Assembly: GCF_006385135.1 (NCBI RefSeq)
Contig: NZ_CP041025.1
Location: 1,519,501 to 1,583,500, forward strand
From: Paremcibacter congregatus
Lineage (GTDB): Bacteria; Pseudomonadota; Alphaproteobacteria; Sphingomonadales; Emcibacteraceae
Reading direction: 5' to 3'
DNA length: 64,000 nt
In this document: positions 41,599 to 56,406 of the stretch, piece by piece
Numbering within the stretch: position 1 is the first letter of the stretch
Layout of the letters: each line of letters begins with the position of its first letter
Made by a program: the position numbers and the translations under genes
The notes under the pieces: generated by a model
Database searches by the model: none
Told to the model about the DNA's origin: nothing
The model's input: only the letters and a program-made list of their open reading frames with translations

Positions 41599-41689
41599 CA
41601 ATAGTCATTACTAAGACTGTCTCTGAGACATGACAGGGGACAGGTCGATAATTAAATCGGCTAATAATTAAATTGGAAGGGAATAAACT

Positions 41690-42349
41690 GTGATTAAAGG
41701 AATATTCAATCTGGATAAAATTTCTGGAGGGTTCAGAAGCAGCATCGTATTTATCGGTATGTTACTCATCGCAAGCTGTAGCATGACTAACGGCAAAGAC
41801 AGCTTGCCATCGGCGCAATTTGTTCCTGTTGATGAAGGACCCGGCGCGCCATATGTGGTGGGTCCATTGGACAGCCTGCAGATTTTTGTCTGGCGTAATC
41901 CTGAATTGACCACATCTGTTACTGTACGGCCCGACGGCCGTTTTTCTGTGCCGCTGATTGACGATATGACGGCGACAGGCCGGACACCGACACAGCTGGC
42001 GCGGGATATCGAGAAAAAACTCTCTGAATATATTCAAAGCCCGATCGTGACGGTGATCGTTTCCGGTTTCCAGGGACCTTTTGCGCAGCAGGTGCGGGTC
42101 GTGGGGTCTGCCACATCACCACAGGCGATTCCTTTCCGGGCCAATATGACATTGCTTGATGTGATGATCACCGTTGGCGGTGTGACTGAATTCGCCGCCG
42201 GTAACCGGGCGACGCTGGCGCGGGTGGAAAACGGGGTCCAGCGCGAATATGGCATTCGCATTGATGACCTGATCAGAGACGGTGACGTCAGCGCCAATGT
42301 TAAGATTGAGCCAGGTGACGTAATCATTATTCCAGAAAGCTTTTTCTAA
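41690..42349 (+). CDS. XrtA-associated polysaccharide export lipoprotein (Wza-like)
   Basis: A 219-residue Wza/GfcE-type export protein. A lipoprotein signal ends at LLIASC (Cys30). The poly_export domain begins YVVGPLDSLQIFVWRNPELTTSVTVRPDGRFSVPL and is followed by SLBB repeats. It forms the periplasmic/outer-membrane export channel for EPS. The start is GTG 41690 with GGAAGGGA upstream. First gene of the long operon to xrtA. Confidence 0.92.
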   Translation: MIKGIFNLDKISGGFRSSIVFIGMLLIASCSMTNGKDSLPSAQFVPVDEGPGAPYVVGPLDSLQIFVWRNPELTTSVTVRPDGRFSVPLIDDMTATGRTPTQLARDIEKKLSEYIQSPIVTVIVSGFQGPFAQQVRVVGSATSPQAIPFRANMTLLDVMITVGGVTEFAAGNRATLARVENGVQREYGIRIDDLIRDGDVSANVKIEPGDVIIIPESFF

Positions 42350-42366
42350 GCTTCTGTTGTTTTTAA

Positions 42367-42396
42367 TGTGAACAAGGGGAAATCTCCTTGTTCACA
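42367..42396 (+). other. intercistronic hairpin
   Basis: TGTGAACAAGG and CCTTGTTCACA form an 11-bp stem between the export and chain-length genes. No T-run follows, so it is more likely an mRNA-stability or partial attenuation element than a full terminator. Confidence 0.6.
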
Positions 42397-42461
42397 CTAT
42401 AGGGATGAATGTCGAAATTAACGGCAGAATAGACTTAAAAATAAATCAGGACGGTTAGGTT

Positions 42462-44042
42462 ATGAACGAGGTATATCAACAGCTTATCTCGATATTATAT
42501 GGAGTTTGGCGCAATAGGATTGTCGCTATCTTCATTGCGTGGGCGATATGTATCGTCGGCTGGATCTATGTTGCCCAAGTACCAAACCAGTATGAATCGG
42601 AAGCCCGTATTCATGTTGATGCGGAAACGTTCCTCAAGCCTTTGCTGGGGGGAATGGCGGTTCAGAATAACATCTATAATCAGGTTGCCATGATGCGGCA
42701 AACCCTGATTAGCCGACCAAATATTGAAAAAGTCATCCGGATGACGGATCAGGACCTTTTGATCAACAGCCCGGAAGCGATGAACGAAAAAATTGATGAT
42801 ATTATCAAGGATATCAATATCAATATTCAGGCGGCGAACCTGTTCAAGATTTCTTATATTCATGAAGACCCCGCGATTGCCAAGATGGTGGTCGAGTCAT
42901 TATTGAATATTTTCATGGAAGATAATCTGGGGCAAAACAGAAAAGACCTGACGTCCGCCGTTCGTTTCATTGAAGACCAAATTCGTGAGTATGAAGAGCA
43001 GCTGGAAATTGCCGAACAGCGTGCCATGGAATTTCGCCAGAAGAATATGGCGTTTTTGTCCGATAAATCATACTATAAGCAACTTCAAAACAGTATCGGC
43101 GAGGTGAATGCAGTAAAGCAGACCTTGTCTGAGTATGACAATCGTCGTAAGCAGCTGATCGCCAGCCTGAAAGATATTCCAGCCTATATTCCATCTTCGG
43201 GAATGGGGCCTTCTCTGGGCGGAAAGTCAAGTGAGCCATCAGCCCTGCAAGGTCGAATTACCAACCTGGAAATGCGTCTGGATGAGCTTTATGCCCGTGG
43301 GTATAAGGAACAGCATCCTGACGTTCGTATCGTCCTGAACCAGATTGATATGTTGAAAACCAAGCAGGTAAAGGCGCAGGGCGAATTTGAAAAGGCGCTT
43401 GAGGATAATGATACTCAGGCCTTGCAGGCGTCAGGTGGGGTCATGCCTAACCCGATCTATGACCAGATCAGTTTGAAGCTGATTGATCTTGAAGGGGAAA
43501 TCGCCATTCTTCAGTCGCGTCTGAAGCAGAAGGAAGAAGGCGCAAATCAACTTAGAGCCATGGCGCACCGTATTCCGGAAGTCGAAGCAGAACACGCACG
43601 GCTGAACCGGGATTATGAAGTCATTAAGCGCAATTACGACCAGATGCTGGCCAAGCGTGAATCGGCGAAAATTTCTTCTGATCTGGAAACCAATACGGAC
43701 CGTGTCCGGTTCCGGGTTATCGATCCGCCGCAGGAAGCGCGGGAGCCGGCCAGTCCGAACCGGTTAATTCTGGTGATCGGTGTTTTGGTTGCGGGTCTTG
43801 GGGCCGGTGTCGGGGTTGCTTTCCTGTTAAGTCAGATGCATGCCACATATTCCACCGAGAAAAACCTGAGAGAAGCGTTCTCCTTCCCGGTGCTGGGCAG
43901 TATTTCCATTCTGCCTTCGGCTGAGGAGCTTCGTCTTCGCAAAAGAAAACTGATTATTTTCTCTATCATGATGGCCGGACTTTTGGTTTCAACGATCAGC
44001 GTATTTCTTGTCATGAATTATATGCATTTACCGGTCGCGTGA
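42462..44042 (+). CDS. XrtA-associated polysaccharide chain-length determinant
   Basis: A 526-residue Wzz/PCP protein. Transmembrane segments lie near residues 20-38, 430-452 and 500-520; the periplasmic middle is helical with coiled-coil stretches (IEDQIREYEEQLEIAEQRAMEFRQK) and the PNRLILVIGVLVAGLGAG proline-rich segment by the second helix. It sets EPS chain length and partners with the separately encoded tyrosine autokinase that follows. Confidence 0.92.
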   Translation: MNEVYQQLISILYGVWRNRIVAIFIAWAICIVGWIYVAQVPNQYESEARIHVDAETFLKPLLGGMAVQNNIYNQVAMMRQTLISRPNIEKVIRMTDQDLLINSPEAMNEKIDDIIKDININIQAANLFKISYIHEDPAIAKMVVESLLNIFMEDNLGQNRKDLTSAVRFIEDQIREYEEQLEIAEQRAMEFRQKNMAFLSDKSYYKQLQNSIGEVNAVKQTLSEYDNRRKQLIASLKDIPAYIPSSGMGPSLGGKSSEPSALQGRITNLEMRLDELYARGYKEQHPDVRIVLNQIDMLKTKQVKAQGEFEKALEDNDTQALQASGGVMPNPIYDQISLKLIDLEGEIAILQSRLKQKEEGANQLRAMAHRIPEVEAEHARLNRDYEVIKRNYDQMLAKRESAKISSDLETNTDRVRFRVIDPPQEAREPASPNRLILVIGVLVAGLGAGVGVAFLLSQMHATYSTEKNLREAFSFPVLGSISILPSAEELRLRKRKLIIFSIMMAGLLVSTISVFLVMNYMHLPVA

Positions 44043-44072
44043 TATTCGTCCGCAGATTAAAAGGTTTAAAGA

Positions 44073-44999
44073 ATGAGTTTAATTGAAAAAGCAGCCGCCA
44101 AACTGAAGAAAAACGAGAGTTTGGTTGAACGTGCTGCGAAAAAAGAAGCGGCGACTTCTCAAGCCCCGACGGTGACGGAACCTGTTGAGAGTTCTCCCGC
44201 GACGCCGCCTGTCCATGCGCCGAAAGCGGATGCGGAACAGAAAAAAACCAAACGATCCAGTACGTTTGTCGAGGTGAATTTGGACCTTTTGCGAGAGCAG
44301 GGGATACATGCGGAAAATGATGATGTCGAGAATTCGGTTACAGCCGAAGAATTCCGTATTGTAAAGCGCAGCTTGTTGTTAAATGCCTTTTCCAAAGGGG
44401 AATCTGCGATTGAAAACGGCAATATTATCATGGTCACCAGTACGCAACCCAATGAAGGCAAAACATTTTGCGCCACCAGTCTTGCCATGAGCATGGCCGC
44501 GGAACGCGATCTGACAGTTCTTCTGGTGGATGCGGATGTTGCGAAACCCGACGTTCTCAAAACGCTTGGAGTGAAAGGCAACAAAGGCCTGATCGATGTG
44601 ATTGAAAATAAGGATATGGATCTCAGCGAGTGTTTGTTGCGGACCAATATTCCGAACTTCACGATTTTGCCAGCCGGTAAAAAACATAAGCTGACGACTG
44701 AATTGCTGGCCAGTGGTCGCATGGGGGAAATCATTGACGAGATAGCCAGACGGTACAGCGACCGGGTCATCATTATTGATTCACCACCCGTTCTGGCCAG
44801 TAGTGCAGCCTCTGTACTGGCTTTGCATGTGGGACAGATCCTGTATGTTGTTGAAGCAGAAAGAACGCGCGAAGGCGAGTTGAAAGATGCTTTGAAAATG
44901 ATCGAGAAAAATAAGAACGTCAATTTCCTTTTGAATAAGACCCGATTCACCCCGGGAACGAAGAAATTCGGTTCTTATTATGGGTATGGATATAATTAA
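44073..44999 (+). CDS. XrtA-associated tyrosine autokinase
   Basis: A 308-residue BY-kinase. Walker A is in STQPNEGKTFCATS, Walker A' in LLVDADVAKPDV and Walker B in VIIIDSPPVL. A C-terminal tyrosine cluster (GSYYGYGYN) is the autophosphorylation site. It regulates EPS assembly with the chain-length protein. The N-terminal ~90 residues are a low-complexity Ala/Pro/Lys linker. Confidence 0.93.
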   Translation: MSLIEKAAAKLKKNESLVERAAKKEAATSQAPTVTEPVESSPATPPVHAPKADAEQKKTKRSSTFVEVNLDLLREQGIHAENDDVENSVTAEEFRIVKRSLLLNAFSKGESAIENGNIIMVTSTQPNEGKTFCATSLAMSMAAERDLTVLLVDADVAKPDVLKTLGVKGNKGLIDVIENKDMDLSECLLRTNIPNFTILPAGKKHKLTTELLASGRMGEIIDEIARRYSDRVIIIDSPPVLASSAASVLALHVGQILYVVEAERTREGELKDALKMIEKNKNVNFLLNKTRFTPGTKKFGSYYGYGYN

Positions 45000-45022
45000 C
45001 ATAAAAGCGAGGGCGGGGAAGA

Positions 45023-46450
45023 ATGTATAGCACCAAAAAAACAATAATCTTGCTGCTGTCTACAGTAGCAACATCTGGTCTAGGGGTTTCTGCTGGCGCT
45101 GCCACATGGCGGGTAACACCGACATTGACAGCCACAGAAACCTATACGGATAATGTCAATCTGGATGAAACAGTGCGCCAGGGTGATTTCGTCACCCAGA
45201 TTTCCCCACAGGTACAACTGACCGGAACCGGGGCGCGGCTGAATGCCTCTATTCTGTATGGCGCGAATTACTTCTTTTACCCCGGCAGCACGGGGGGAGA
45301 AAAGCATGATTTACGACACACCGTTCAGGCGAATCTGAATAGTGAACTGGTGAATGATCTGTTTTTTATCGATGCAGGGGCCAATGTCGATCAACAGTTC
45401 CTGGATCGTCGTCAGGCAATCTCATCAGTGGATGTCAGTCAGACAAAAAACCGTCGCACGGTTCAATCTTATCGTTTTTCTCCTTACCTGGCCCATCGTT
45501 TCGGGTCCTGGGCAACGGCACAGCTGCGCTATGAACTGCGTCATGTGAGAAGTTCGTCAGATACGGAACAAACTACGCTCAATACCTTTTTTGGCAACTC
45601 TCTGACTCATAGGGGAACCTTCTCCCTGTCCAACGGGCCTGCATTTCAGCGCCTGGGCTGGACGCTGTCAGCGGTGTATGCCAATGAGGAAAGGGAAGAT
45701 CAGGCGGATTTTGATACCCGCACCCTGAATGCTGATTTATCGTATCAGTTGCTGGATCAGTTTGCCCTGTTGGGCAGTATTGGATATCAGGACCGGGATG
45801 GCGGCAATTCTTTCGCCAACTTTGACGGTGTGACGTGGGACGCTGGATTTCGTTTTGTACCTGGCCCTCGAACATCAATTTCCATGCGGTATGGTAACAG
45901 GTCGGGAACGGATACGTTTTCCCTGAATGCACAATATAAAATGACGGCAAAACATTCGATCAACCTGACCTACACGGACACGATTCAAACTTTCCAGTCT
46001 TTTGCTTTTGATGAAATACCTGGACCGGTAATTGACCCGACACAGTCAGGGAATTTTGTAAGTGGCGATATCACCCGTCGAAAACAGGCGCGGCTCTATT
46101 TGACAGGGTCGCGGGGGCGAACATCCTATTCGATGAGTGGCTCCTACAGCAGAAATAAATCTGATAACTCTGCGCTCGACGAAGACCGGTACAGCGCGGC
46201 AGTCTCGCTTAATCGTCAGCTTAGTCGCCGTTTGAGCCTGGGGAGTAGTTTTTCATACAACCTGTCAAAGTTTGCTTCGGACGGGACGGAAGATACATTT
46301 TGGAGTGCGTCCGTGAATGGTAATTATTCGATTTCCCAATCTTTGGTTGGAACTCTTGGGTACACCCATTCTGATCGTGACCAGGCCCGCTTTGCCAACT
46401 TGAATGGCGGCACAAATTACATTTCCTTGTCCATCAGGGCAACATTCTAG
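45023..46450 (+). CDS. PEP-CTERM/XrtA-associated outer-membrane beta-barrel
   Basis: A 475-residue protein with a signal peptide (LLLSTVATSGLGVSAGAA) and regular alternating strands with many aromatic ends, finishing YISLSIRATF with the C-terminal Phe typical of outer-membrane barrels. It matches the TIGR03016-type proteins in XrtA loci. It may be the outer-membrane secretin or porin partner of EPS export. Confidence 0.87.
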   Translation: MYSTKKTIILLLSTVATSGLGVSAGAATWRVTPTLTATETYTDNVNLDETVRQGDFVTQISPQVQLTGTGARLNASILYGANYFFYPGSTGGEKHDLRHTVQANLNSELVNDLFFIDAGANVDQQFLDRRQAISSVDVSQTKNRRTVQSYRFSPYLAHRFGSWATAQLRYELRHVRSSSDTEQTTLNTFFGNSLTHRGTFSLSNGPAFQRLGWTLSAVYANEEREDQADFDTRTLNADLSYQLLDQFALLGSIGYQDRDGGNSFANFDGVTWDAGFRFVPGPRTSISMRYGNRSGTDTFSLNAQYKMTAKHSINLTYTDTIQTFQSFAFDEIPGPVIDPTQSGNFVSGDITRRKQARLYLTGSRGRTSYSMSGSYSRNKSDNSALDEDRYSAAVSLNRQLSRRLSLGSSFSYNLSKFASDGTEDTFWSASVNGNYSISQSLVGTLGYTHSDRDQARFANLNGGTNYISLSIRATF

Positions 46451-46457
46451 GTGAATA

Positions 46458-47489
46458 ATGTATACTGAATTTTATGGATTTGAAGGCAAGCCTTTTCAGC
46501 TAACGCCTGATCCCAGTTTCTATTTTGACAGCTCAACCCATCATAAGGCCATGGCGTATTTGACCTATGGCCTGAGTCAGGGTGAGGGGTTCATCATTGT
46601 TACCGGTGAAATCGGCGCGGGGAAAACTACGCTGGTGGCGCGGTTGTTGAACGAGCTGGACAATGATCAGTATGTGGCGGCGAAAATCGTAACAACGCAT
46701 CTGGACGCGGATGATATCCTGCGTATGGTGGCGGCGGGGTTCGGTCTGGATATCAGCACCAAAGACAAGTCCATTTTGTTGAATGAAATCGAAATTTTCC
46801 TGCGGCGCAATCATGCCAAGGGAAAGCGGGCTTTGCTAATCATTGATGAAGTTCAGAATCTGCCGATCCCGGCCCTGGAAGAATTGCGGATGTTGTCAAA
46901 TTTCCAGGAAGGGGATCGGGCGTTACTACAGAGCTTCCTGATCGGTCAACCGGAATTCCGGGACAAGTGGGCTTTCGCGCCAGAGCTTGAACAGTTACGT
47001 CAGCGGGTGATTGCAACCCATCATCTGCAATCCATGACCTATGACGAAACCAAGGAATATATCGAACACCGTTTGTCTGTGGTTGGCTGGTCCGGGAAAC
47101 CTTTATTTACAGAGGGATCGTTCCATGAAATTTATCAGTTTACCAACGGGGTGCCCCGCAAATTGAATACGCTCTGTTCACGTATTTTGCTCTTTGGGGC
47201 GTTAGAAGAACTGGCGACCATTGATGAAAAAGTCGTGACCAATGTCATTGATGATATGGAGCATGATATTGCCTCTTCCGGACCTTCCCGCCACGCAGTA
47301 GGCGACACGCGGCTTGTTTCCGGGATGAAGGCATCTTCCCCCAAGGCTGACATGAACAACCAGCATATGGAAGATCTGAAAGAACGGATATATGTTCTTG
47401 AAAAATATGTTAAAATTCATGATGAAACCATCAAGGGCGCGCTTGAAATTATAGCCAATATGGTTGATCAGACAGAAGATGGGGAATGA
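46458..47489 (+). CDS. XrtA-associated AAA ATPase (ExeA/GspA-like)
   Basis: A 343-residue ATPase: N-terminal MYTEFYGFEGKPFQLTPDPSFYF, Walker A GEIGAGKTT, Walker B LLIIDEVQN. The C-terminus has a charged coiled-coil (MEDLKERIYVLEKYVKIHDETI). This is the standard ATPase of XrtA loci. The role is inferred as energising or assembling EPS machinery. Confidence 0.92.
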   Translation: MYTEFYGFEGKPFQLTPDPSFYFDSSTHHKAMAYLTYGLSQGEGFIIVTGEIGAGKTTLVARLLNELDNDQYVAAKIVTTHLDADDILRMVAAGFGLDISTKDKSILLNEIEIFLRRNHAKGKRALLIIDEVQNLPIPALEELRMLSNFQEGDRALLQSFLIGQPEFRDKWAFAPELEQLRQRVIATHHLQSMTYDETKEYIEHRLSVVGWSGKPLFTEGSFHEIYQFTNGVPRKLNTLCSRILLFGALEELATIDEKVVTNVIDDMEHDIASSGPSRHAVGDTRLVSGMKASSPKADMNNQHMEDLKERIYVLEKYVKIHDETIKGALEIIANMVDQTEDGE

Positions 47490-47496
47490 GTGAATC

Positions 47497-48360
47497 ATGA
47501 CGTCTTCAACAGATAACAGCCTGATCACCAACGCCATGACTGTGGATGTGGAGGATTATTTCCAGGTGGGGGCCTTTGAGCATGATATTGATCGCAATGA
47601 CTGGGATAACCTCGAATGTCGTGTCGAACGCAACATTGATGTCATCCTTAAAATGTTCGATGACCACAAGGTCAAGGCGACCTTCTTTACTCTGGGCTGG
47701 ATTGCGGAACGTTTTCCCCATGTGGTGCGCCTGATTGTCGAGAATGGTCATGAACTGGCCAGTCACGGGATGCAGCATTTACGGGTCACTGATCAGAGCA
47801 GACCTGAATTTACGGAAGATGTCACATTTTCCAAGAAAATCCTCGAAGACATAGGGGGCGTCGGGGTAAAAGGCTATCGGGCGCCAAGTTTTTCGATCGG
47901 CGAAAAAAACCTTTGGGCGCTGGATGTTCTGGCGGAAGCCGGTTTTACGTATAGTTCGAGCATTTATCCGATACAGCACGATCATTATGGCATGCCCTCA
48001 GCACCACGCTTTGATTTTAAACCGATTGACGGCCAGGCATTTATCGAAATGCCGGTAACGACAGTAGAAGTTATGGGGCGCAAAATCCCTTGTGGCGGCG
48101 GAGGATATTTCCGGCTATTGCCTTATTTCATTTCCAAGGCGGCGATGAAACGGGTCAACGCGAAAGATCAGCAACCGTGCATCTTTTATTTTCACCCCTG
48201 GGAGATCGACCCGGAACAACCGCGCCAAACACAAGCGGGGTTGAAATCCAGATTTCGCCATTACACCAATCTTGATGTGATGGAGACAAAGATCCGTAAA
48301 GTTCTCGGAGAATTTGACTGGGGCCGGATGGACCAGGTTTTTTTAGAGCGCCAGGGGTAA
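47497..48360 (+). CDS. XrtA-associated polysaccharide deacetylase
   Basis: A 287-residue NodB-type CE4 deacetylase. The metal-binding Asp is in MTVDVEDYFQVGAFE, the His pair is in ELASHGMQHLRV, and the catalytic tract is GYRAPSFSIGEKN. The family marker IFYFHPWEIDPEQPR is present near the C-terminus. It removes acetyl groups from EPS sugars. The stop is directly followed by the FemAB gene. Confidence 0.93.
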   Translation: MTSSTDNSLITNAMTVDVEDYFQVGAFEHDIDRNDWDNLECRVERNIDVILKMFDDHKVKATFFTLGWIAERFPHVVRLIVENGHELASHGMQHLRVTDQSRPEFTEDVTFSKKILEDIGGVGVKGYRAPSFSIGEKNLWALDVLAEAGFTYSSSIYPIQHDHYGMPSAPRFDFKPIDGQAFIEMPVTTVEVMGRKIPCGGGGYFRLLPYFISKAAMKRVNAKDQQPCIFYFHPWEIDPEQPRQTQAGLKSRFRHYTNLDVMETKIRKVLGEFDWGRMDQVFLERQG

Positions 48361-49398
48361 ATGATGCAAGTTAAGCTACTTGATATTTTTGGCGATTGCG
48401 CCGCCTGGGATGCCTATGTCGAGCGGCATAGTGAGGCAACCGTGTATCATCAGACAGCCTGGGGCCGGGCGGTCGTGCGCAGTATGGGACATAAATATTT
48501 CTATATTTATGTGGAAGATGCTGGTGAAATTAAAGGCCTGATCCCACTGATCCAGGTTAAGAGCCGTTTGTTCGGGAATGCGCTGATTTCTATGGCTTTC
48601 GCCACGAATGGCGGCCCGATCTTTGACAGCCCGGAGGTTCTGGTATTGCTGGATGGGGAATGCCGCCGCTTATCCCGGGCTTTGGGGGTCGATTCCCTTG
48701 AATGCCGTAATATGAAAAAAATCCATGATGACTGGCCAACCAAAAGCGAGATGTATTCGACCTTCCGTAAAACGCTTTCTGAGGATTCAGAAGAAAATAT
48801 GATGGCTATTCCGCGTAAACAACGGGCCATGGTGCGCAAGGGGATAAAGTTTGGCCTGAACGCTGTGGTGGATGACCAGCCCAACCGTCTGTTCGCCATG
48901 TATTCGGAAAGTGTCCGTAATCTGGGAACGCCGGTTTTCCCCAAGAAGCTTTTTTATTGTCTGAAACAGGAATATGGGGACAACTGTGAAATCCTGACCA
49001 TCGAGACAGAGGCCGGGAAAGCCGTTTCAAGTGTCATGACGTTTTATTTCCGGGATGAGGTCGTTCCTTATTACGGAGGAGGCACGGTTGAGGCGCGTGC
49101 CCTGGCTGCGAATGACTTTATGTATTGGTCATTGATGGACCGGGCTGTTCAGGAAAAAAAATGCACAATATTTGATTTCGGACGCAGTAAAAACGGGACG
49201 GGTGCGTTCAGTTTCAAGAAAAACTGGGGCTTTACACCGGAAGCGCTGCATTACGAATATATTTTGAAGGACGGGGAAGAAATTCCGGAAATAAACCCGT
49301 TGAACCCTAAATATCAACTGATGATTAAAACTTGGAAGAAACTGCCGCTGCCGTTGGCAAACATCGTGGGGCCCATGGTGTCAAGGTATCTGGGGTAA
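48361..49398 (+). CDS. FemAB family XrtA-associated protein
   Basis: A 345-residue tandem-GNAT FemAB-like protein (ATVYHQTAWGRAVVRSMGHKYFYIY at the start, FGRSKNGTGAFSFKKNWGF near residue 277). FemAB enzymes transfer aminoacyl groups; in XrtA loci the substrate is unknown, perhaps the EPS. The start ATG abuts the previous stop. Confidence 0.92.
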   Translation: MMQVKLLDIFGDCAAWDAYVERHSEATVYHQTAWGRAVVRSMGHKYFYIYVEDAGEIKGLIPLIQVKSRLFGNALISMAFATNGGPIFDSPEVLVLLDGECRRLSRALGVDSLECRNMKKIHDDWPTKSEMYSTFRKTLSEDSEENMMAIPRKQRAMVRKGIKFGLNAVVDDQPNRLFAMYSESVRNLGTPVFPKKLFYCLKQEYGDNCEILTIETEAGKAVSSVMTFYFRDEVVPYYGGGTVEARALAANDFMYWSLMDRAVQEKKCTIFDFGRSKNGTGAFSFKKNWGFTPEALHYEYILKDGEEIPEINPLNPKYQLMIKTWKKLPLPLANIVGPMVSRYLG

Positions 49399-49474
49399 TT
49401 ACGGCGTTTGTGTGTGGTGTGATTAAGAAATATATATTTGAACGTAATATTTTTTAAAGAGCGTGGACGCTAAC

Positions 49475-51049
49475 ATGCATGAAAATATAACAATTGGGGG
49501 CAGGGATACAGGAACAATGCAACAACAAGAAATCACACAACAGTGGCGTCATGCGGCTCTTATGCTGGGGCTTGCCTTTTTAACGGTCATCGTCGTTTTA
49601 TTTGATACGGTGTCCAATCTGGTCATGACCTGGTGGGATAAGCCGGAATATAATCACTGTTTGCTCATTCTGCCGATTATCGCCTATTTGATTCATGAAC
49701 GGCGGGAGGTTTTTCTGAAAATCGCACCGAAACCTTCCTGGCTTGGGCATGGTATTATTGTGGCTGGCGGCGGTTTATGGCTGCTTGGGGATTTGGCGGA
49801 TGCCAATGTGGTGCGGCAGTTTGGTTTGGTGATCCTGATCCAGGGCATATGTCTGGCGATTCTTGGCCCCCGGGTTGTTCGGGCATTCCTGTTTCCGCTG
49901 GCATATATGATTTTTCTTATTCCATTTGGTGATTTCCTGGTGCCGGCGTTGCAGGATTATACCACTGCTTTTGTGGTGACGACCCTTAATATTATAGACA
50001 TTCCGGTGTTTGTCGAAGGGGTGTTTCTGTCAATCCCGGCAGGAGACTTTCACGTGGCGGAGGCGTGCGCAGGCCTGCGGTTTCTGGTCGCAACTGTTGC
50101 ACTGGGAACGTTGATGGCTAATGTGGCTTACAAGACTCTTGGACGCCAGGTTCTTGTTGTGATTCTGTCCTTCCTTGTTCCTGTTATTGCCAACGGGTTT
50201 CGCGCCAGCGGTATAGTGCTGGTCGCCCACTGGTCCGACATGAAATATGCCACCGGCGTTGATCATATTGTTTTCGGCTGGATCTTTTTTGCGATTGTTT
50301 TGCTGATATTTATTTCTATCGCCATGACATTTACCAACAGAGGCCTGAATGATGGATATGTTGATTTCAGCAAGGCTTACTGGACTAATAATGAAAGCGT
50401 ACCGGTGCGAAAGTTTGCTCCTTTCTTTATCGCGGGGATTTTGCTGGTGGGGCTGGGGCCGCTTTATGTTTCCCTGATAGAACAACGTTACACCGCCTAT
50501 GACAGCTATACAGTGCAGCTTGAAAGTGGAACTTGGGGAGAACCCCGGGAAGACGCCAACTGGAAACCCTTTTACAAGAATGCTTCTCAGGAATTTCACT
50601 TGGGTAAATCTGTGCCGGATGCGAAACCGGCCGATGTGCCTACTGACGTCTATCTCGGGTATTATAAATATCAAACCAGCGATGTGGAGATGATCCGGCA
50701 CGGAAATGATGTGGCCCAGAATGATAAGTGGGAACGGGCCTCCACCCGGTCTCTTCAGACAGAAATCGACGGCGCGCAGAAGTCAGTAAACGAAGTGGTC
50801 CTTCAATCGCGCGGCGGGAAACGTCTGGTCTGGTATTGGTATTGGGTCGATGGTAAAATAATAACCAGCAAATATATGGCCAAACTGTATGAGGTGAAGG
50901 CGAAGATCCTTGGTGGTCGGTTGGATGCCGCCGTTGTGGCGCTGTCGGTACCATTTGATAATGACAGTTTCGTTCGACGGCAGGCGCAACTGGCCAAACT
51001 CGCCGCGACTTTGCCACCATTGGGTAATATTGTCGCCTCTCGTCCCTAA
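49475..51049 (+). CDS. xrtA: exosortase A with fused EpsI domain
   Basis: About 524 residues. The N-terminal two-thirds is a polytopic membrane transpeptidase with catalytic Cys198 (VAEACAGLRFL), Arg243 (NGFRASG) and His264 (GVDHIVFGW). The C-terminal third (about 310-520) is a periplasmic EpsI domain, the usual fusion for XrtA. It cleaves PEP-CTERM tails and attaches proteins to the surface. Starts at GTG 49463 or ATG 49517 (good AGGA) are also possible. Confidence 0.93.
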   Translation: MHENITIGGRDTGTMQQQEITQQWRHAALMLGLAFLTVIVVLFDTVSNLVMTWWDKPEYNHCLLILPIIAYLIHERREVFLKIAPKPSWLGHGIIVAGGGLWLLGDLADANVVRQFGLVILIQGICLAILGPRVVRAFLFPLAYMIFLIPFGDFLVPALQDYTTAFVVTTLNIIDIPVFVEGVFLSIPAGDFHVAEACAGLRFLVATVALGTLMANVAYKTLGRQVLVVILSFLVPVIANGFRASGIVLVAHWSDMKYATGVDHIVFGWIFFAIVLLIFISIAMTFTNRGLNDGYVDFSKAYWTNNESVPVRKFAPFFIAGILLVGLGPLYVSLIEQRYTAYDSYTVQLESGTWGEPREDANWKPFYKNASQEFHLGKSVPDAKPADVPTDVYLGYYKYQTSDVEMIRHGNDVAQNDKWERASTRSLQTEIDGAQKSVNEVVLQSRGGKRLVWYWYWVDGKIITSKYMAKLYEVKAKILGGRLDAAVVALSVPFDNDSFVRRQAQLAKLAATLPPLGNIVASRP

Positions 51050-51109
51050 AGAAGCACAGCAGACGGATAAGCTCTATCCCTCCGGCATCGGCAGAAAAAG
51101 GCACTTTTT

Positions 51110-51883
51110 ATGATAAAGAAAATCTGTATCGTTTTCCTGGGTGTTATGCTCTGCGGTATTATGCCTGGTGTTGCGCATGATAAGGGGCTGCGCCTGGCGG
51201 ATGTGGTGAAACGGATTACGCCTTCCGTGGTTGCCATTGCAACGGACAGCCCGTTGAGGAGCCCGCGGGTGGTTATGCGCGGCACAGGATTCGTTGTTCA
51301 TGACGGTTTGCATGTGATTACCAATGCGCATGTCTTACCCAATGCCTCTGAGATGAAACATAATGAGAAAATCACGGTTTTGATTGGGCGAGGGCGGGCG
51401 CCGGACCGCCGTATCGCGGAAATCGTTCGGGTGGACAAGGAACATGACCTGGCTCTGTTGCGTATCGAAGGTGACAGGGTTCCCAAATTTGAACTGGGTA
51501 CAGGGGGATTGGCTGATGAAGGGCTGGATATCGCCGTGACCGGCTATCCGATAGGCGCGGTCTTGGGTCTGTTTCCCGTAACTCATCGCGGTATTATTGC
51601 GGCGGTGACGCCGATTGTGATACCGCAACCGACAGCGCGTTATTTGAAAACCAAGATTATTCGTCAGACCCGCTATGATGTCTATCAATTGGATTTGACG
51701 GCGTTTCCGGGCAATAGCGGAAGTCCGCTTTATAATGTGGAAACAGGGAAGGTTCTGGGAATATTAAATAGTGTGGCTGTGCGGGGGACAAAAGAAAATG
51801 TTCTTTCCAGTCCCAGCGGCATATCTTTTGCCATTCCCGTGGTGCATCTTTATAATCTGATGCGAGAGGCCGGCTTAAAATAA
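51110..51883 (+). CDS. exported trypsin-like serine protease without PDZ
   Basis: A 257-residue S1-type protease with a signal peptide (MIKKICIVFLGVMLCGIMPGVA). The catalytic triad is visible: His74 (TNAHVL), Asp113 (EHDLALL) and Ser203 (PGNSGSP). It lacks the PDZ domain of DegP-type proteins. It follows xrtA by 60 nt and precedes the HPr-rel-A genes, so processing of a locally encoded exported protein is a reasonable guess. Confidence 0.85.
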   Translation: MIKKICIVFLGVMLCGIMPGVAHDKGLRLADVVKRITPSVVAIATDSPLRSPRVVMRGTGFVVHDGLHVITNAHVLPNASEMKHNEKITVLIGRGRAPDRRIAEIVRVDKEHDLALLRIEGDRVPKFELGTGGLADEGLDIAVTGYPIGAVLGLFPVTHRGIIAAVTPIVIPQPTARYLKTKIIRQTRYDVYQLDLTAFPGNSGSPLYNVETGKVLGILNSVAVRGTKENVLSSPSGISFAIPVVHLYNLMREAGLK

Positions 51884-51949
51884 GTCTCTGTCACAGTTGT
51901 GGAAACTTTATTCAACTCTATGGAAGAAAACAGGAGGGCATAATTCCCT

Positions 51950-52186
51950 CTAATTATCCTTCTTGTCTTTTTGATCTCCGGCGGCGGGCATAATTTGTTC
52001 AAGTTTTTCAGCCTGGCTGGGAGAGCTGTCAGCAATATTACTGTCTGTTGTGTTGAGAGCAGTCCATACTGAAACCACTGCAACAACCCATCCAAGTACC
52101 GCACCGGCGACCCAGACTATAAGGGAATGCCTCATAGAAAGGCGGTCTTCTTTAGAGTTTTTCTTGATACGCGCGTTGTTAACCAT
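51950..52186 (-). CDS. small single-span membrane protein
   Basis: A 78-residue protein. One hydrophobic segment (SLIVWVAGAVLGWVVAVVSVWTAL) follows a basic N-terminus, and the C-terminal half is polar and acidic-basic (AEKLEQIMPAAGDQKDKKDN). I do not recognise the family. ATG 52186 is used; an in-frame TTG at 52198 is possible. It is convergent with the protease gene. Confidence 0.5.
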   Translation of the reverse strand: MVNNARIKKNSKEDRLSMRHSLIVWVAGAVLGWVVAVVSVWTALNTTDSNIADSSPSQAEKLEQIMPAAGDQKDKKDN

Positions 52187-52314
52187 AATAAAGCTCAATA
52201 TTTCAGTTAGTTATGCTTAGCGTCATTAGTATAATACTCTATAGTTAATAAATTCTAATGACTAGTGTTTTTTTAAGACGACATAAACTGTTACAATAAT
52301 ATATCCATACTAAC

Positions 52315-52378
52315 TAAGGTTATTCAAGAAACGTGCCACATATTATAAGGTTATTTGGAACAGATACTTAAGGTTATT
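52315..52378 (+). repeat. three direct copies of TAAGGTTATT
   Basis: Exact 10-bp copies begin at 52315, 52346 and 52369 (spacings of 31 and 23 bp). They lie 311-374 bp before the sigma-54 promoter, a normal distance for enhancer-binding sites of an RpoN activator. Confidence 0.6.
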
Positions 52379-52688
52379 TTGTCGTATTTCTAAAGATAAA
52401 TGGGGCTAAAATACTGTAAAGAATACTGACACTTTAATGACCAATTTTACACTTTTTGTGTGAAATAGAGCCCGGCGTTAAGTGTATGATATGACATAAA
52501 TTTATAGAGGCCTGAAAACAAGGGCGCGGCTGAATATCGACATGCTGGAGGTTGTGTCAGGGTGATCTGTGACCAGGAAGAACTGAAATGTGTAAAATTA
52601 TTGTATCAAAATGGGGAAAAGTGTCAGGATATTTTACAGTTCCGGAAGGGGTGATTTTGTAAGTGATTGATTTGAAATGTTTTAATCT

Positions 52689-52705
52689 TTGGCCTGAATA
52701 TTGCA
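52689..52705 (+). promoter_or_regulatory. sigma-54 (-24/-12) promoter
   Basis: TTGGC at -24 and TTGCA at -12 with exact GG-N10-GC spacing. It lies about 110 nt before the TAT-signal protein gene. It requires an ATP-dependent activator; PrsR-type regulators accompany XrtA systems elsewhere. Confidence 0.7.
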
Positions 52706-52811
52706 TATATACTGTTGTAGAGAGACGTGCGCCGGAGAAAAATATGGTGTTTGCGGCGAAGGCGCGTTATATTGGATTATATGTTTAAAATTATTAGGCA
52801 GGCAATAAGTC

Positions 52812-53198
52812 ATGACAGATGTGAATAAAGACGACGTAATCAACAAAAGTGATGAAGAGCGTCTCAAACGCAGACGGATTTTGAAAGCCGGTGCGGCAAT
52901 CGCGCCTTTAGCCGTTACCTTGCATGGGGGTAATGCAATGGCCCAGGTGGTTTCTGCAACATGTGTGGAAAAAATGGAAGGCCAGCTGATAATTCCTCAA
53001 TTCGAAGAAACGAGCCCAGGTCAGTTTACAGAAGTGGGTAAACAGGAATTTTCTGAATTTCCTATGCAAGCCACAACCGGTCGGCCAAATCCATCCAACC
53101 CGGCTGTTCCTGAAACGCATTGGGATTATATTTCTTTACAGGATAGCCCTGGCCATTCCTGTTATAATTCCATCACCATCGCGAGTGGTGGTAATTAA
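52812..53198 (+). CDS. small TAT-signal exported protein, likely HPr-rel-A client
   Basis: A 128-residue protein. After a charged N-terminus comes a twin-arginine signal: RRRILKAG, a hydrophobic stretch, then GNAMA as a likely cleavage site at about residue 44. The ~84-residue mature part has two cysteines (ATCVEK and GHSCYN) and a Ser/Gly-rich end. I do not recognise a family. It lies 28 nt before the PqqD-like gene under a sigma-54 promoter, so it may be the substrate of the modification genes that follow; this is inference. Confidence 0.65.
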   Translation: MTDVNKDDVINKSDEERLKRRRILKAGAAIAPLAVTLHGGNAMAQVVSATCVEKMEGQLIIPQFEETSPGQFTEVGKQEFSEFPMQATTGRPNPSNPAVPETHWDYISLQDSPGHSCYNSITIASGGN

Positions 53199-53225
53199 TC
53201 TGTAATTTTCCGGGGTATTGAAGCT

Positions 53226-53570
53226 TTGACTGTTTCAAGTCTCTTGTCTGAAGAAAATACTATTTATAGAACGGCTGTATTCAAAATTCCGGATACAGCC
53301 GATTTTCTATGGCGTTCTATGGATGACGCTCATGTGATTTATGACGCCCGGTCCGGCCATTCCCAGGTTCTTAACGACTTTGCCCGCGAAATTCTGGCGC
53401 TCATTGAAGATGAGCCGCGGGATTTAGCAGGATTGTTTAAGGAACTGGAGCACATTCTCGAAATATCACTCGAAGCAGATTTAAAGGAACAGGTTCTGAC
53501 GACACTTGTCGCGTTTGACAAAATGGGATTGATCGAGCCGACTGTTCTTCAGGAGGAAGGCAAGCCATAA
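53226..53570 (+). CDS. HPr-rel-A system PqqD-like peptide chaperone
   Basis: A 114-residue PqqD-like (RRE-type) protein. The core WRSMDDAHVIYDARSGHSQVLNDFAREILALI matches the family pattern for binding a peptide leader beside a beta-sheet. It begins at TTG 53226 with no in-frame ATG before the domain. The next gene starts 1 nt after its stop. It probably presents a peptide or protein to the kinase or nucleotidyltransferase. Confidence 0.8.
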   Translation: MTVSSLLSEENTIYRTAVFKIPDTADFLWRSMDDAHVIYDARSGHSQVLNDFAREILALIEDEPRDLAGLFKELEHILEISLEADLKEQVLTTLVAFDKMGLIEPTVLQEEGKP

Positions 53571-53571
53571 C

Positions 53572-54501
53572 ATGGGGAGTCCGACAAAGAAGAGCGCTAG
53601 TGAGTTACATTCTCTGGATCAACAATTGGCCGGGACGGGTGCCGTGCTGCGTATTGGCCCCATCAGCACACGGGTTGCCATTGGTTTCCCTTCCATACGG
53701 CAGCAGTTTCTGAAGATTTATCAGGATTACTGCTTCCCGACCGAACCCGAAATCATTGATCATCGCCTGACGGTATATGCACGCAATTTATTTCGCCGCT
53801 ACATCCGTCCTCAGGCAACCATCAATACGCTGATGAATGACGATTTTGTGCCTCTTCCTGAATCCATGGGTCTGTTGTCCGTTGAGATGGGCATGAACTG
53901 GCAGGTGGCTTTTGGCTGTAAAACACATATATTGTTCCATGCGGGGGTTGTCGAGCGCGATGGCATTGGATTGATCATTCCGGCAATATCCGGTAGCGGA
54001 AAAAGCACGCTGTCGGCAGGACTTTCTTATGACGGATGGCGGTTTTTCTCGGATGAATTCGGCATGCTGGATCCGGCATCGGGGATGCTTTACCCTTATC
54101 CCCGGCCTGTATCCCTGAAAAATGAATCCATTGCCGTGATGAAAGCCTGGGTCAAGGATGAGACATGTTTCAGCCCGGAATATCGAAAAACCCCAAAAGG
54201 TACAATTTGTTATCTGCGTCCTCCGGTCGATAGCCTGAAGCGTATGGATGAGCCTGCCCGGCCACGTCTTGTCATTCATCCGATATTTGACCCGAATGCA
54301 ACGCCATCTTGCCGCCGGTTGACCCAGACAATGGCGTTTTTCCGTCTGGTGCGTTCTTCCGCCAATTACGGCGATATCGGAGAAGCAGCCTTTGCGGCCC
54401 TCAGTCAACTATCGGCGGAGTGTCAATCCTATGAAATCACCTATAGCACTCTTGAAGAGGCCATCGTCTTGGTCAATCAGATCGTGGATGATCTGGCATG
54501 A
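53572..54501 (+). CDS. HprK-related kinase A
   Basis: A 309-residue homologue of the HPr kinase C-terminal domain. Walker A is SGSGKST (140-146), with H123 before it and D161/E162 in FFSDEFG after it. It probably phosphorylates serine on a protein or peptide, not HPr itself. HprK-like kinases with PqqD-like partners also tailor lasso peptides (paeninodin type). It overlaps the next gene by 4 nt. Confidence 0.82.
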   Translation: MGSPTKKSASELHSLDQQLAGTGAVLRIGPISTRVAIGFPSIRQQFLKIYQDYCFPTEPEIIDHRLTVYARNLFRRYIRPQATINTLMNDDFVPLPESMGLLSVEMGMNWQVAFGCKTHILFHAGVVERDGIGLIIPAISGSGKSTLSAGLSYDGWRFFSDEFGMLDPASGMLYPYPRPVSLKNESIAVMKAWVKDETCFSPEYRKTPKGTICYLRPPVDSLKRMDEPARPRLVIHPIFDPNATPSCRRLTQTMAFFRLVRSSANYGDIGEAAFAALSQLSAECQSYEITYSTLEEAIVLVNQIVDDLA

Positions 54502-55577
54502 CGCAGCAAAAAAAGCATAGTCTTGTTCTGGAGGCCCTGAAAAACCCGACAATGATGCGGGACCTGGATGTGGGGCAATGGAATGCGTTGCTGCTGCAGG
54601 GGCAGTTGCTGAAATTAAGTGGACGATTGGCTTGTGATGCCGAGGCTTCTGGCATATGGGATGAGTTACCACCTAAAGCGCAACAAGTTCTTACCAATGC
54701 GCGGGTGTCTGTTGCGGCCCAGCAACGTAAAATCATGTGGGAAGTAAACCGCATTCGGCGCGCCTTGGTCGGGTTTGATGGCAAAGTCATTCTGGTCAAG
54801 GGCGGGGGCTATATCGCCGGTGGTCTGACCTGTGCCCAGGGACGTCATAGTGTTGATATTGATATTCTTGTGGCCCGTAAAAATATCGATCTGGTAGAGG
54901 ATTATCTGCTAAAGGCCGGTTACGAGAGCCAGATACTTAATGAATATGATCAGCACTATTATCGCGACTGGGCTCATGAATTACCTCCCTTGACCCACCC
55001 TGACCGCATGGTGGAAGTGGATGTCCATCACAATATTCTGCAACTTACCAATAAATTGTCCCCGCAAATTGATTTAATGATTGAGGCCGCGGTGCCACAG
55101 GAAGACAATATCTTCGTTCTTGCGCCAGCGGATATGCTGCTGCACTCCATTGTTCATCAATTCGTTGATGGCACGCTCAAAGGCAGTCTGCGCAACCTTC
55201 TGGAACAGCATGAGATGATAACGGAATTTGGCCAGAGCTCTGGTTTCTGGGCGGATTTCATGGACAGGGCCGAACAGCTCGGTTTGAGGCGTCCGGTATT
55301 TTACTGCCTGCGGTATTGTCAGCATTTTTTCGGCACCTCTATTCCACAGGAAGTTCTGGCGATATCGGCTGTGGCGGGGCCGGGTCCTTTGACCCTGAAA
55401 ATGATGGATATGGCCGTGATAAACAGCATGGTGCCATATGGTGAAGGACGCTCGCGGGTGCTTGATTATCTTGCCACCAATGGTCTTTATTTGCGGTCGC
55501 ATTGGCTGCGGATGCCGCCGATGATGTTATTTAGTCACCTGACGCGGAAATCACTACGTCGTTTAAAACGGGCCTAA
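54498..55577 (+). CDS. nucleotidyltransferase family protein of the HPr-rel-A cluster
   Basis: A 359-residue protein. The nucleotidyltransferase core has K101-G-G near ILVKGGGYIAGG, metal-binding Asp120/Asp122 in GRHSVDIDIL and Asp175 in VEVDVHH. This is the uncharacterised NTase type (PF14907-like) that recurs next to HprK-like kinases in peptide-modification clusters. It may act on the phosphorylated client. Last gene of the cluster; it converges with gph and overlaps it by 4 nt. Confidence 0.78.
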   Translation: MTQQKKHSLVLEALKNPTMMRDLDVGQWNALLLQGQLLKLSGRLACDAEASGIWDELPPKAQQVLTNARVSVAAQQRKIMWEVNRIRRALVGFDGKVILVKGGGYIAGGLTCAQGRHSVDIDILVARKNIDLVEDYLLKAGYESQILNEYDQHYYRDWAHELPPLTHPDRMVEVDVHHNILQLTNKLSPQIDLMIEAAVPQEDNIFVLAPADMLLHSIVHQFVDGTLKGSLRNLLEQHEMITEFGQSSGFWADFMDRAEQLGLRRPVFYCLRYCQHFFGTSIPQEVLAISAVAGPGPLTLKMMDMAVINSMVPYGEGRSRVLDYLATNGLYLRSHWLRMPPMMLFSHLTRKSLRRLKRA

Positions 55578-56251
55578 GTCTTAATCAGGGTGTCGAGGGC
55601 GTCAAAGAATTCATCATAATGATCAATAATAATATCCGGGTTCAGCTCTGCGATAGGGGTCTTGGTATAACCGAAAGATACGCCGATCACCGGGATGGCG
55701 GCTTTTTGGGCCGCGATGATATCACTCGCCGAATCGCCCACCATAATGGCGTTTTGTGAACTGCAGTTCATGCGGTCCAAAGTCGCGGTAAGGTGTCGGG
55801 GGTCGGGCTTGCGGAAATCGAAACTGTCGCCCGCGATCAGGACCGAGAAATATGATGCGAGCCCAATTTCTTCCATCAGCTTTTCTGTCAGGCGCAGAGC
55901 CTTGTTGGTGCATAGCCCGAGCGGTATTTTCTGAGCGGCCAGTTTTTTAACCACATCGGCGGCGCCGGGAAAAAGGATATCCTCTGCAGTCATGGTGTCA
56001 TAATAATAGTCGAGGAAAATTGTCTGAATAGCGTCTATTTCTGCGTCGGATGGCAGAGTTCCGGTTTCAGTAAACCCCTTGACGATCAAGGCGCGGGCAC
56101 CGTCACCCACCATGTTCCGGACCTGTGAGATGTCTATTCCAGAGCGGCCATTTTGCTGGAGAACATGGTTGAGAGCCCGGCTTAAATCCCGGGCGCTGTC
56201 GACCAGAGTTCCATCAAGATCAAATATTATCGCCGAAGGTTTTTTAGTCAT
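55574..56251 (-). CDS. gph: HAD hydrolase, phosphoglycolate phosphatase type
   Basis: About 225 residues. HAD motif I is FDLDGTLVDSARDLSRALN, motif II is in GLCTNKA and motif IV in MVGDSASDIIAAQKA. It hydrolyses 2-phosphoglycolate or a similar small phosphate ester. The start at ATG 56251 gives the normal Gph N-terminus; the frame is open to 56296. Confidence 0.85.
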   Translation of the reverse strand: MTKKPSAIIFDLDGTLVDSARDLSRALNHVLQQNGRSGIDISQVRNMVGDGARALIVKGFTETGTLPSDAEIDAIQTIFLDYYYDTMTAEDILFPGAADVVKKLAAQKIPLGLCTNKALRLTEKLMEEIGLASYFSVLIAGDSFDFRKPDPRHLTATLDRMNCSSQNAIMVGDSASDIIAAQKAAIPVIGVSFGYTKTPIAELNPDIIIDHYDEFFDALDTLIKT

Positions 56252-56406
56252 AAAGTTGTCATGATGGGGCGTCATAGTCACGCTTTCGTAATACACGGGT
56301 AAAAAAATATAAATCGGTTATAAAATATTAGCATTCTTGTGGCACGGTGGCTGAAAAATGGCTACTTAGTGTTATAAAGCAAGTTCAAAAGCGAAAAAGA
56401 AAAAAT

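Follow-up and report, generated by a model that had tools for sequence, protein, structure and literature searches.

An HPr-rel-A cassette of Paremcibacter congregatus with a candidate exported client and a PEP-CTERM-type promoter

Described relatives and layout of the cassette

In the linear polyphosphorylated peptide (LPP) systems of Bacillota, a kinase phosphorylates Ser3 of the core and the clusters often lie within capsule loci; the precursors, which are likewise often found in polysaccharide loci, have 35-200 aa, a conserved N-terminus and a variable C-terminus, and no effect of LppN was detected, according to the available text of the LPP study (PMC13381572). In the paeninodin and pseudomycoidin lasso peptides, an HPr-kinase homologue phosphorylates a Ser, the phosphate then receives hexose(s) from a nucleotidyltransferase, and some clusters carry a putative sulfotransferase (PMC8498205, available portion). 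For PEP-CTERM genes, motif 1 of the promoters described by Haft in 2006 contains TTTACA (PMC1569441, available portion). The NCBIfam names of the HPr-rel-A system (TIGR04352/TIGR04353) give neither a client nor a regulon, and a search of the open-access literature found no paper on its function, substrate or regulation.

The cassette analyzed here (52812-55577) is located on contig NZ_CP041025.1 of Paremcibacter congregatus, within a window of 64 kb (the whole stretch of DNA that was analyzed), and it is a member of the HPr-rel-A system by both NCBIfam cut-offs. The four ORFs of the preliminary description were all confirmed on the + strand at its coordinates (Table 1). The genes for the client, PqqD_rel_X, HprK_rel_A and the PF14907 enzyme are packed as in an operon, which supports the single operon proposed before; the 1-nt PqqD-kinase gap and the 4-nt kinase-nucleotidyltransferase (NTase) overlap were as described, whereas the client-PqqD gap is 27 nt and not 28. 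An Rfam scan of 49000-57000 gave no match.

Table 1. Features of the cassette, its upstream region and the adjoining genes
Feature	Coordinates	Strand	Basis or remark
XrtA/PEP-CTERM exopolysaccharide genes, last one exosortase A (outside the cassette)	42462..51049	+	NCBIfam models
S1C/trypsin-like protease (context, not consistently linked)	51110..51883	+	PF13365, 83.7 bits
Distal enhancer-like site TGTCAGTATTCTTTACA	52415..52431	-	exact match to TGTCRGN5TTTACA
Proximal enhancer-like site TGTCAGGATATTTTACA, candidate PrsR site	52622..52638	+	motif match
Sigma-54-type -24/-12 site TGGCCTGAATATTGCA	52690..52705	+	score 10 of 12
Client precursor, 128 aa, RR leader and two Cys	52812..53198	+	ATG start ORF
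RR leader, residues 1-44, RRRILKAGAAIAPLAVTL, AMA at end	52812..52943	+	predicted cleavage after A44
S48-A-T-C51, Ser and first Cys after predicted cleavage site	52953..52964	+	candidate phosphorylation site
S116-C117-Y-N-S120, C-terminal [ST]CxxS motif	53157..53171	+	alternative candidate modification site
PqqD_rel_X, discrete RRE-type, presumed leader-binding, 114 aa, TTG start	53226..53570	+	TIGR04353, PF05402
HprK_rel_A kinase, 309 aa	53572..54501	+	TIGR04352, 271 bits (cut-off 200)
Walker A core S140-G-S-G-K144-S-T146	53989..54009	+	sequence, homologue conservation
PF14907 nucleotidyltransferase-fold enzyme, 359 aa	54498..55577	+	PF14907, 158.5 bits (cut-off 31.2)
NTase D120-x-D122	54855..54863	+	third Asp D175 at 55020-55022

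By analogy, the closest precedent of the cassette is the LPP group (PMC13381572). As far as the available text allows comparison, both have a discrete RRE, an HprK-like kinase and an NTP transferase (a likeness by family models), a Ser near the leader cleavage site (the phosphorylated Ser3 in LPP; here the conserved candidate S48, beside the predicted site), and precursors with a conserved N-terminus and a variable C-terminus. Unlike the LPP clusters described there, the cassette is proteobacterial and has a PqqD-type RRE, an RR leader without [Y/W]xxP, two conserved Cys, a C-terminal SCxxS and a sigma-54/enhancer promoter, and its operon encodes neither a peptidase nor a transporter; among the genes scanned, namely the operon, the S1C protease and ten genes at 36619-51049, no SipW-like peptidase and no MsbA-like transporter was found. 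With the lasso clusters, as covered by the available text (PMC8498205), it shares the HPr-kinase homologue, the nucleotidyltransferase and, in some loci, a sulfotransferase, but it is without the macrolactam cyclase and the B2 peptidase, and its client is a protein and not a short core peptide. A lasso pathway was rejected: the asparagine-synthase-like gene at 39484-41346 reached 123.5 with the lasso cyclase model, whose cut-off is 525, and the only B2-like PF13471 matches of the genome are at 3.24 Mb. The operon contains no lasso genes, in agreement with the earlier statement that neither a lasso cyclase nor a leader peptidase lies beside these genes. With the PEP-CTERM/PrsR regulon, in its available descriptions (PMC1569441, PMC9850573), it shares a two-part promoter consisting of a TTTACA motif and a -24/-12 element; it adjoins XrtA genes, but its client is without a PEP-CTERM tail. 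On the LPP analogy, the operon probably encodes an RRE-guided modification of a protein exported with an RR (Tat-like) leader.

The enzymes and the candidate client

PqqD_rel_X exceeded the cut-offs of both TIGR04353 (46.7 bits, cut-off 35) and PF05402 (28.5 bits, cut-off 23.4). Residue conservation was counted among homologues scoring at least 250 bits in profiles built here. H123, G143, K144, D161 and E162 of the kinase were kept in 190/190 homologues, and S145 and T146 in 189; D120, D122 and D175 of the NTase were kept in 177/177. Thus the Walker A motif and the Asp residues, reported as intact before, are present and conserved among homologues; their catalytic roles are assumed here on the basis of the HprK fold and the NTase fold. 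The model of the NTase (pLDDT 91.7) had MenT1 (8an5) as its nearest structure (Z 13.0, rmsd 2.9 over 177). An FKRP-like phosphotransfer was also considered for this enzyme, but Foldseek gave an E of only about 2, which was not taken as evidence. When the client profile, the kinase and the NTase were used in PDB sequence searches, no match was obtained.

Neither the client nor ten relatives of it matched NCBIfam, and its only Pfam match, Dockerin_1, was below the cut-off (13.6 bits vs 22.9). Its tail SCYNSITIASGGN is without a PEP motif, TM segment or Arg cluster, and the client matched no PEP-CTERM model. The client carries RR and AxA, and the latter places the predicted leader cleavage after A44; no Tat model matches it, and TatC is encoded in the genome (211.2 bits). 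Counted from the predicted cleavage site, S48 is position +4. In an alignment of 42 client sequences S48 was invariant and C51 was kept in at least 90%. Both Cys noted previously, C51 and C117, are present, whereas the Ser-rich tail was overstated (the final 22 residues include 5 Ser), although S116 and S120 do fall within the conserved [ST]CxxS. Within the family the leader is conserved and the mature part variable, and paralogues are both tandem and dispersed. Many clients are ORFs of 120-300 residues, and in the one client with a predicted structure a domain was modelled with confidence past residue 60. The domain of a Burkholderiales-type client (L219) gave a best Foldseek E of 3.1 and a best VIA-align Z of 2.8 against known folds, which does not in itself prove a new fold.

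The two candidate motifs were distributed unevenly. S-x2-4-C after the leader was found in 59/62 clients of the alphaproteobacterial set and [ST]CxxS in 60/62, and each in 21/21 clients of exosortase-negative genomes of the phylum sample; in exosortase-positive phylum genomes the counts were 6/10 and 5/10. In the named set, which is mostly beta/gammaproteobacterial and comprises the best 80 among 234 confirmed matches, all to a single alphaproteobacterial kinase, they were 13/67 and 7/67, and C..SGxxSG occurred in 45/67. Because the motifs are not uniform between sets, a single site model does not fit all clients.

The small protein was expected to co-occur with its partner genes, and it did: across 99 genomes of the same order, the client profile matched 65/67 kinase-bearing and 0/32 kinase-less genomes, for a profile built from kinase neighbours and genome counts that are not phylogenetically independent. 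In each of the two kinase genomes without a profile match, a divergent client that retains RR, Cys and SCxxS adjoins PqqD. Co-occurrence persisted when the client was unlinked, at 164 kb (G221), at 280 kb (G267) or on another contig (G284), and in G240 the client-PqqD pair and the kinase-NTase pair sit on separate contigs. A leader protein just 5' of the kinase was found by a strict pattern in 155/186 proteobacterial loci and in 1/174, 1/162, 4/174 and 1/164 control windows, and by a loose pattern in 159/186 loci vs 7, 2, 12 and 12 in control windows; the same regexes were used throughout, and the counts are descriptive since the regexes were written after inspection of clients. For this count 8/194 loci were dropped for too little flank, and near-duplicates were retained (L105 and L182 represent a single contig, and the pairs L183/L184 and L056/L057 differ little). 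Among the loci scored as client-less are some at a contig end, some with an unlinked client and some where the regex missed the client; several were recovered. Two kinases below the cut-off (L110, L111) had neither a PqqD nor a client match. These distributions support the small protein as the constant partner of the three enzyme genes and, because of that constancy, as the best candidate client.

HPr kinases are regulatory enzymes. With the RR leader and the TatC of the genome, this speaks for a reading in which the client is the cognate partner of a chaperone-like PqqD, the leader is a mere Tat signal, PqqD an export chaperone and the kinase an HPr-kinase-style sensor-regulator, with no stable modification of the client. 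We regard this as improbable, given that the enzymes stay together with intact active sites, that leader conservation extends past the RR (P in 116/161 and L in 121/161 clients), that a TPR-sulfotransferase gene downstream of the kinase in 12/194 loci (two of them, L153 and L155, from exosortase-bearing genomes) suggests tailoring, and that the available LPP text offers a precedent for modification (PMC13381572).

Promoter and genomic context

Newly recognized features of the cassette are a sigma-54 site of the -24/-12 type and two enhancer-like motifs that match exactly, the proximal one lying 68 nt (start to start) ahead of the sigma-54 site. When one mismatch at most was allowed, TGTCRGN5TTTACA had only two matches within the 64 kb, and each of them lies upstream of the client. 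This motif was derived here, and its agreement with Haft motif 1, in the available description, consists of TTTACA (PMC1569441). Genome-wide, 19 exact matches were found at 16 places, vs 1 for the reversed pattern; 14/16 places had a sigma-54 site and an ORF. Twelve of these 14 promoters precede PEP-CTERM proteins (PEP_CTERM model, over cut-off), one is that of this operon, and the last (L301) precedes a PEP-CTERM-like protein with no model match. The operon carries the same promoter type as the PEP-CTERM genes of this bacterium, and PrsR is encoded in the genome (699.4 bits, cut-off 502.6). Neither this promoter type nor the conserved Ser near the predicted leader cleavage site featured in the preliminary description.

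Sigma-54 sites were present in 18/19 cases in the window's family vs a shuffle mean of 0.6, and enhancer scores of at least 11 upstream of 61/160 clients (reversed motif 0, one shuffle 1), where the shuffles moved non-overlapping letter pairs and preserved dinucleotides only in part. The promoter link is lineage-bound, with 0/10 in family f2, 1/23 in f151 and 1/21 in exosortase-negative phylum loci.

The genes ahead of the cassette matched TIGR03007, 03018, 03016, 03015, 03006 and 03019 over cut-off, together with XrtA (TIGR03109, 312.9 bits). The S1C protease had been put forward as a processing enzyme of the client; a relative lies near the kinase (flanks of at most 6 kb) in only 6/74 loci of the alphaproteobacterial set and 30/120 others, and a role as general client protease was rejected. 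The earlier framing of the system within XrtA genomes proved too narrow: no exosortase was detected in 29/51 kinase genomes of the phylum sample, many of them drafts, and a restriction of the cassette to exosortase genomes was rejected, although kinase and exosortase associate within the order (62/67 kinase genomes vs 19/32 without kinase).

The promoter type common to the cassette and the 12 PEP-CTERM genes would also suit a reading in which it is the co-regulated PEP-CTERM proteins, or the exopolysaccharide, that are truly modified, and the small protein acts after export as an adaptor or carries the modification. Genes of this kind do occur near some cassettes, namely PrsT with a PEP-CTERM gene (L246), TIGR03027 (L219), PepA (L189) and TIGR03088/TIGR03108 genes (L153, L146, L163, L172, L175). 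However, the 21 clients of the phylum genomes without a detected exosortase all keep both motifs, and RRE-type proteins normally bind the leader of the substrate itself, which makes this reading quite improbable. That the cassette yields a secreted RiPP natural product (an antimicrobial or a signal) of the lasso or LPP kind is the least probable reading: its enzyme types are those of the paeninodin and LPP clusters in the available texts (PMC8498205, PMC13381572), but the operon is without lasso cyclase, leader peptidase and transporter, residues 1-44 contain no Tyr or Trp and hence no [Y/W]xxP, many clients are large, one with a modelled domain, and the system is present in 67/99 genomes of the order.

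Proposed mechanism and meaning

The preferred reading is thus an RRE-guided phospho-modification of an exported protein that would be co-expressed with PEP-CTERM proteins. The enhancer-like and sigma-54-type sites, arranged as at PEP-CTERM genes, would drive the operon through the action of PrsR and RpoN on them. In the cytoplasm, PqqD_rel_X would bind the client leader RRxLLKxGA..P..TL, and HprK_rel_A would phosphorylate a conserved Ser, most likely S48, with S120 or S116 as the second choice. The PF14907 enzyme might then attach a nucleotide, or a hexose as in pseudomycoidin, to the phosphate; this is the weakest step, with little precedent because the effect of LppN was undetected in the LPP study. 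Export, probably by Tat, would be followed by loss of the leader, and the product would enter the exopolysaccharide/PEP-CTERM surface layer, where the two Cys may form a disulfide. A more speculative extension, which we consider unlikely, is that Ser48, phosphorylated by the kinase, would provide a phosphoester attachment point for a sugar or a group derived from a nucleotide, transferred by the PF14907 enzyme (and sulfated in some lineages), so that the modified protein would serve as an anchor or primer coupling XrtA-type exopolysaccharide to the co-expressed PEP-CTERM proteins.

With these results, HPr-rel-A gains a concrete candidate client family across Proteobacteria with a probable modified residue. 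It also gains a mechanistic precedent from the literature and, through its promoter, a link to the surface biology of PEP-CTERM proteins. If the proposed modification is true, the kinase-RRE-NTase logic extends from small peptides of Bacillota to larger exported proteins; if the attachment-point reading were also true, proteins and polysaccharides of biofilm bacteria would be joined by a linkage of a new kind.

Cassette genes and client-kinase linkage

The genome around the window is a single contig of 4.19 Mb. The four cassette genes were found as the preliminary description had them, except that the gap between the client and PqqD genes is 27 nt, not 28. In model scans, the kinase, the PqqD protein and the nucleotidyltransferase (NTase) exceeded the cut-offs of TIGR04352, TIGR04353 and PF14907, respectively. 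XrtA/PEP-CTERM exopolysaccharide genes, the last being exosortase A, lie 5' of the cassette, as does an S1C protease gene. Between protease and client are ∼0.93 kb without an obvious gene, in which an Rfam scan matched no family. The XrtA-type amidotransferase of the window remained below its model cut-off of 816.9 (score 280.1), and residues 1-89 fall outside the matched stretch; its N-terminal part is possibly divergent or altered. Two PF13471 (lasso B2-like) matches were located ∼1.66 Mb from the cassette, with no HprK_rel_A match beside them.

Features of the window and of its genome (G000, contig C1)
Feature	Position	Strand	Detail
XrtA-type amidotransferase gene	window 39484-41346		
Protease-client interval	window 51884-52811		
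Enhancer-like match	window 52415-52431		exact
Enhancer-like match	window 52622-52638		exact
Sigma-54-type -24/-12 site	window 52690-52705		TGGCCTGAATATTGCA; score 10/12
Four-gene cassette	window 52812-55577	+	
PF13471 pair	C1 3238600-3241519		L283, L284
Enhancer motif, no sigma-54 site nearby	C1 1589386		
Enhancer motif, no sigma-54 site nearby	C1 1713516		

Within the order, the kinase was detected at E <=1e-15 in 67 of 99 genomes (above cut-off in 65 of these 67). The proposed co-occurrence of the 128-residue protein with it was borne out: the small-protein profile was positive in 65 genomes, all with the kinase (65/67), versus 0/32 kinase-free genomes (Fisher p 6e-24, kinship between genomes ignored). 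The profile missed two kinase genomes, G194 and G222; in both, a divergent client that bears an RR leader, Cys and SCxxS adjoins PqqD and matches weakly (E 0.006 and 0.024). The profile was built from proteins adjoining kinases, and linkage is therefore partly built in; free of this bias are the unlinked clients, which lie 164 kb (G221) or 280 kb (G267) from the kinase or on a separate contig (G284). In G240, a kinase-NTase pair is on one contig and a client-PqqD pair (L265, C3) on another, pointing to a functional client-PqqD pair. The extra client found away from the cassette in seven genomes of family f151 (L266-L272), likewise unlinked, suggests that a single enzyme set serves several clients. 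Among the 74 neighbourhoods of the alphaproteobacterial set (the window, 66 others of the order and 7 of the class), 65 matched the client profile, 70 PqqD and 73 NTase. On these counts, the small protein is a constant partner of the cassette. At two further loci (L110, L111), HprK_rel_A relatives below cut-off have PF14907-like genes adjacent, and their neighbourhoods gave no match to PqqD or client.

In a phylum sample of 299 genomes, the kinase was above cut-off in 51, including 43 outside the order. Loci were retrieved for 40 of those 43, together with 80 named loci (the best 80 of 234 confirmed matches to one kinase), which include Massilia, Duganella, Noviherbaspirillum, Methylobacter, Sedimenticola and Thioalkalivibrio. 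When a client ORF was required to end within -1000 to +60 of the kinase start, the strict leader pattern placed a client 5' of the kinase in 155/186 loci, versus 1/174, 1/162, 4/174 and 1/164 in four control windows; with the loose pattern, 159/186 loci were positive versus 7, 2, 12 and 12.

Predicted promoter type shared with PEP-CTERM genes

The window holds two enhancer-like matches, both exact, and these and the sigma-54-type site 5' of the client fall within the protease-client interval; at least two enhancer matches at up to one mismatch arose in 7/100 shuffles. Sigma-54 sites (score at least 9, 90-260 nt before the RR codon) were surveyed with shuffles as control, and were found in 18/19 loci from the family of the window (mean over shuffles 0.6), 7/10 other alphaproteobacterial loci (0.46), 6/10 exosortase-positive phylum loci (0.16) and 42/65 named loci (1.84). 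They were scarce elsewhere (exosortase-negative phylum loci 1/21, family f2 0/10, f151 1/23). An unguided gapped-word count over 250 nt 5' of the sigma-54 sites returned TGTCG-N7-TTACA in 35/74 loci, the best word from three shuffles reaching 4. TGTCRGN5TTTACA at 11/12 or better preceded 11/19 clients of the window's family, 8/43 others of the alphaproteobacterial set, 6/31 of the phylum and 36/67 of the named set; the reversed motif gave 0 and one shuffle 1/160. Enhancer-to-sigma-54 distances group near 69, 80, 91, 102 and 112 nt, which suggests helical phasing.

Across the genome, 19 exact matches to TGTCRGN5TTTACA were found at 16 places (reversed pattern, 1), and 14 of these places carry a sigma-54 site plus an ORF. 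Twelve of the 14 ORFs match PEP_CTERM TIGR02595 above the 16-bit cut-off (16.1 to 26.9), another (L301) has a tail resembling PEP-CTERM yet no model match, and the remaining ORF is the cassette's client. The two matches without a nearby sigma-54 site may be chance or different use. A TTTACA-containing motif with a sigma-54 site has been described before PEP-CTERM genes and assigned to PrsR, with a small number of additional sites reported before other genes (Haft et al. 2006, PMC1569441); one PEP-CTERM gene of this kind was shown to depend on RpoN (PMC9850573). PrsR is encoded in the window's genome. Judged from sequence, the promoter type shared with PEP-CTERM genes is the main new finding on the cassette.

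Client motifs, enzymes and the sulfotransferase variant

The client leader follows RRxLLKxGA....P..TL, with a Cys after it. Among 161 clients, RR and T/S were present in all, which the search pattern partly imposed, while P (116) and L (121) were not imposed. S-x2-4-C after the leader occurred in 59/62 clients of the alphaproteobacterial set and [ST]CxxS farther along in 60/62; in the phylum sample, 21/21 clients from exosortase-negative genomes had both motifs, and of those from exosortase-positive genomes 6/10 had the first and 5/10 the second. In the window client these are S48-A-T-C51 and S116-C117-Y-N-S120, and S48 is invariant across 42 aligned clients. The named set, mostly from beta- and gammaproteobacteria, deviates (S-x2-4-C 13/67, [ST]CxxS 7/67, C..SGxxSG 45/67), with S45 and S49 invariant among 29 aligned. 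An NCBIfam scan of ten representative clients matched no family, and Pfam matches were sub-cut-off only. For one client of the named-set type (L219), the structure model is of low confidence at residues 1-55 but confident from ∼60 onward, and gave no convincing match among PDB structures.

Active-site residues of kinase and NTase are invariant among homologues. The NTase model (pLDDT 91.7) resembles MenT1 (Z 13.0, rmsd 2.9 over 177), ANT(2'')-Ia (Z 10.7, rmsd 3.8 over 163) and MenT3 (Z 10.0, rmsd 3.3 over 182); the modeled PF14907 enzyme thus has a nucleotidyltransferase fold, which reveals no substrate.

A TPR + Sulfotransfer_3-related gene follows the kinase in 12/194 loci (L146, L153-L155, L163, L167-L169, L172, L174-L176), three called by domain scan and nine by phmmer relatedness. 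In five of the 12 (L168, L169, L174-L176; the L174 contig is short) no NTase was found nearby, as if the sulfotransferase-type gene had replaced it. Exosortase was undetected in 10 of the 12 genomes and detected in two (L153, L155). XrtA/PEP-CTERM-type genes border the cassette in those loci that were scanned: amidotransferase TIGR03108 above cut-off at L153, L146, L163 and L172, and glycosyltransferase TIGR03088 at L153, L172 and L175. The cassette therefore remains within exopolysaccharide loci also in genomes that gave no exosortase match.

Predicted modification of the client

Searches of one open-access literature collection found no paper on the HPr-rel-A system. Clusters for linear polyphosphorylated peptides (LPP) of Bacillota are described as combining an RRE, an HprK-like kinase and an NTP transferase, often within capsule loci; the kinase adds phosphates to core Ser3, and deletion of the NTP transferase gene is reported to cause no detectable change in a heterologous host (PMC13381572). 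In lasso pathways, a kinase of this type phosphorylates a C-terminal Ser, and the phosphate then receives hexose from an NTase (PMC8498205). The cassette differs from LPP in leader motif, peptidase and transporter, and is by definition not LPP. The candidate counterpart of LPP Ser3 in the window client is the conserved S48, at +4 past the predicted AxA site, and that of the lasso C-terminal Ser is S116/S120. Given both precedents and the position of S48, phosphorylation at S48 is favoured. By analogy, HprK_rel_A would phosphorylate S48, NTase tailoring would follow, and the modified client would then be exported to reside in the surface layer.
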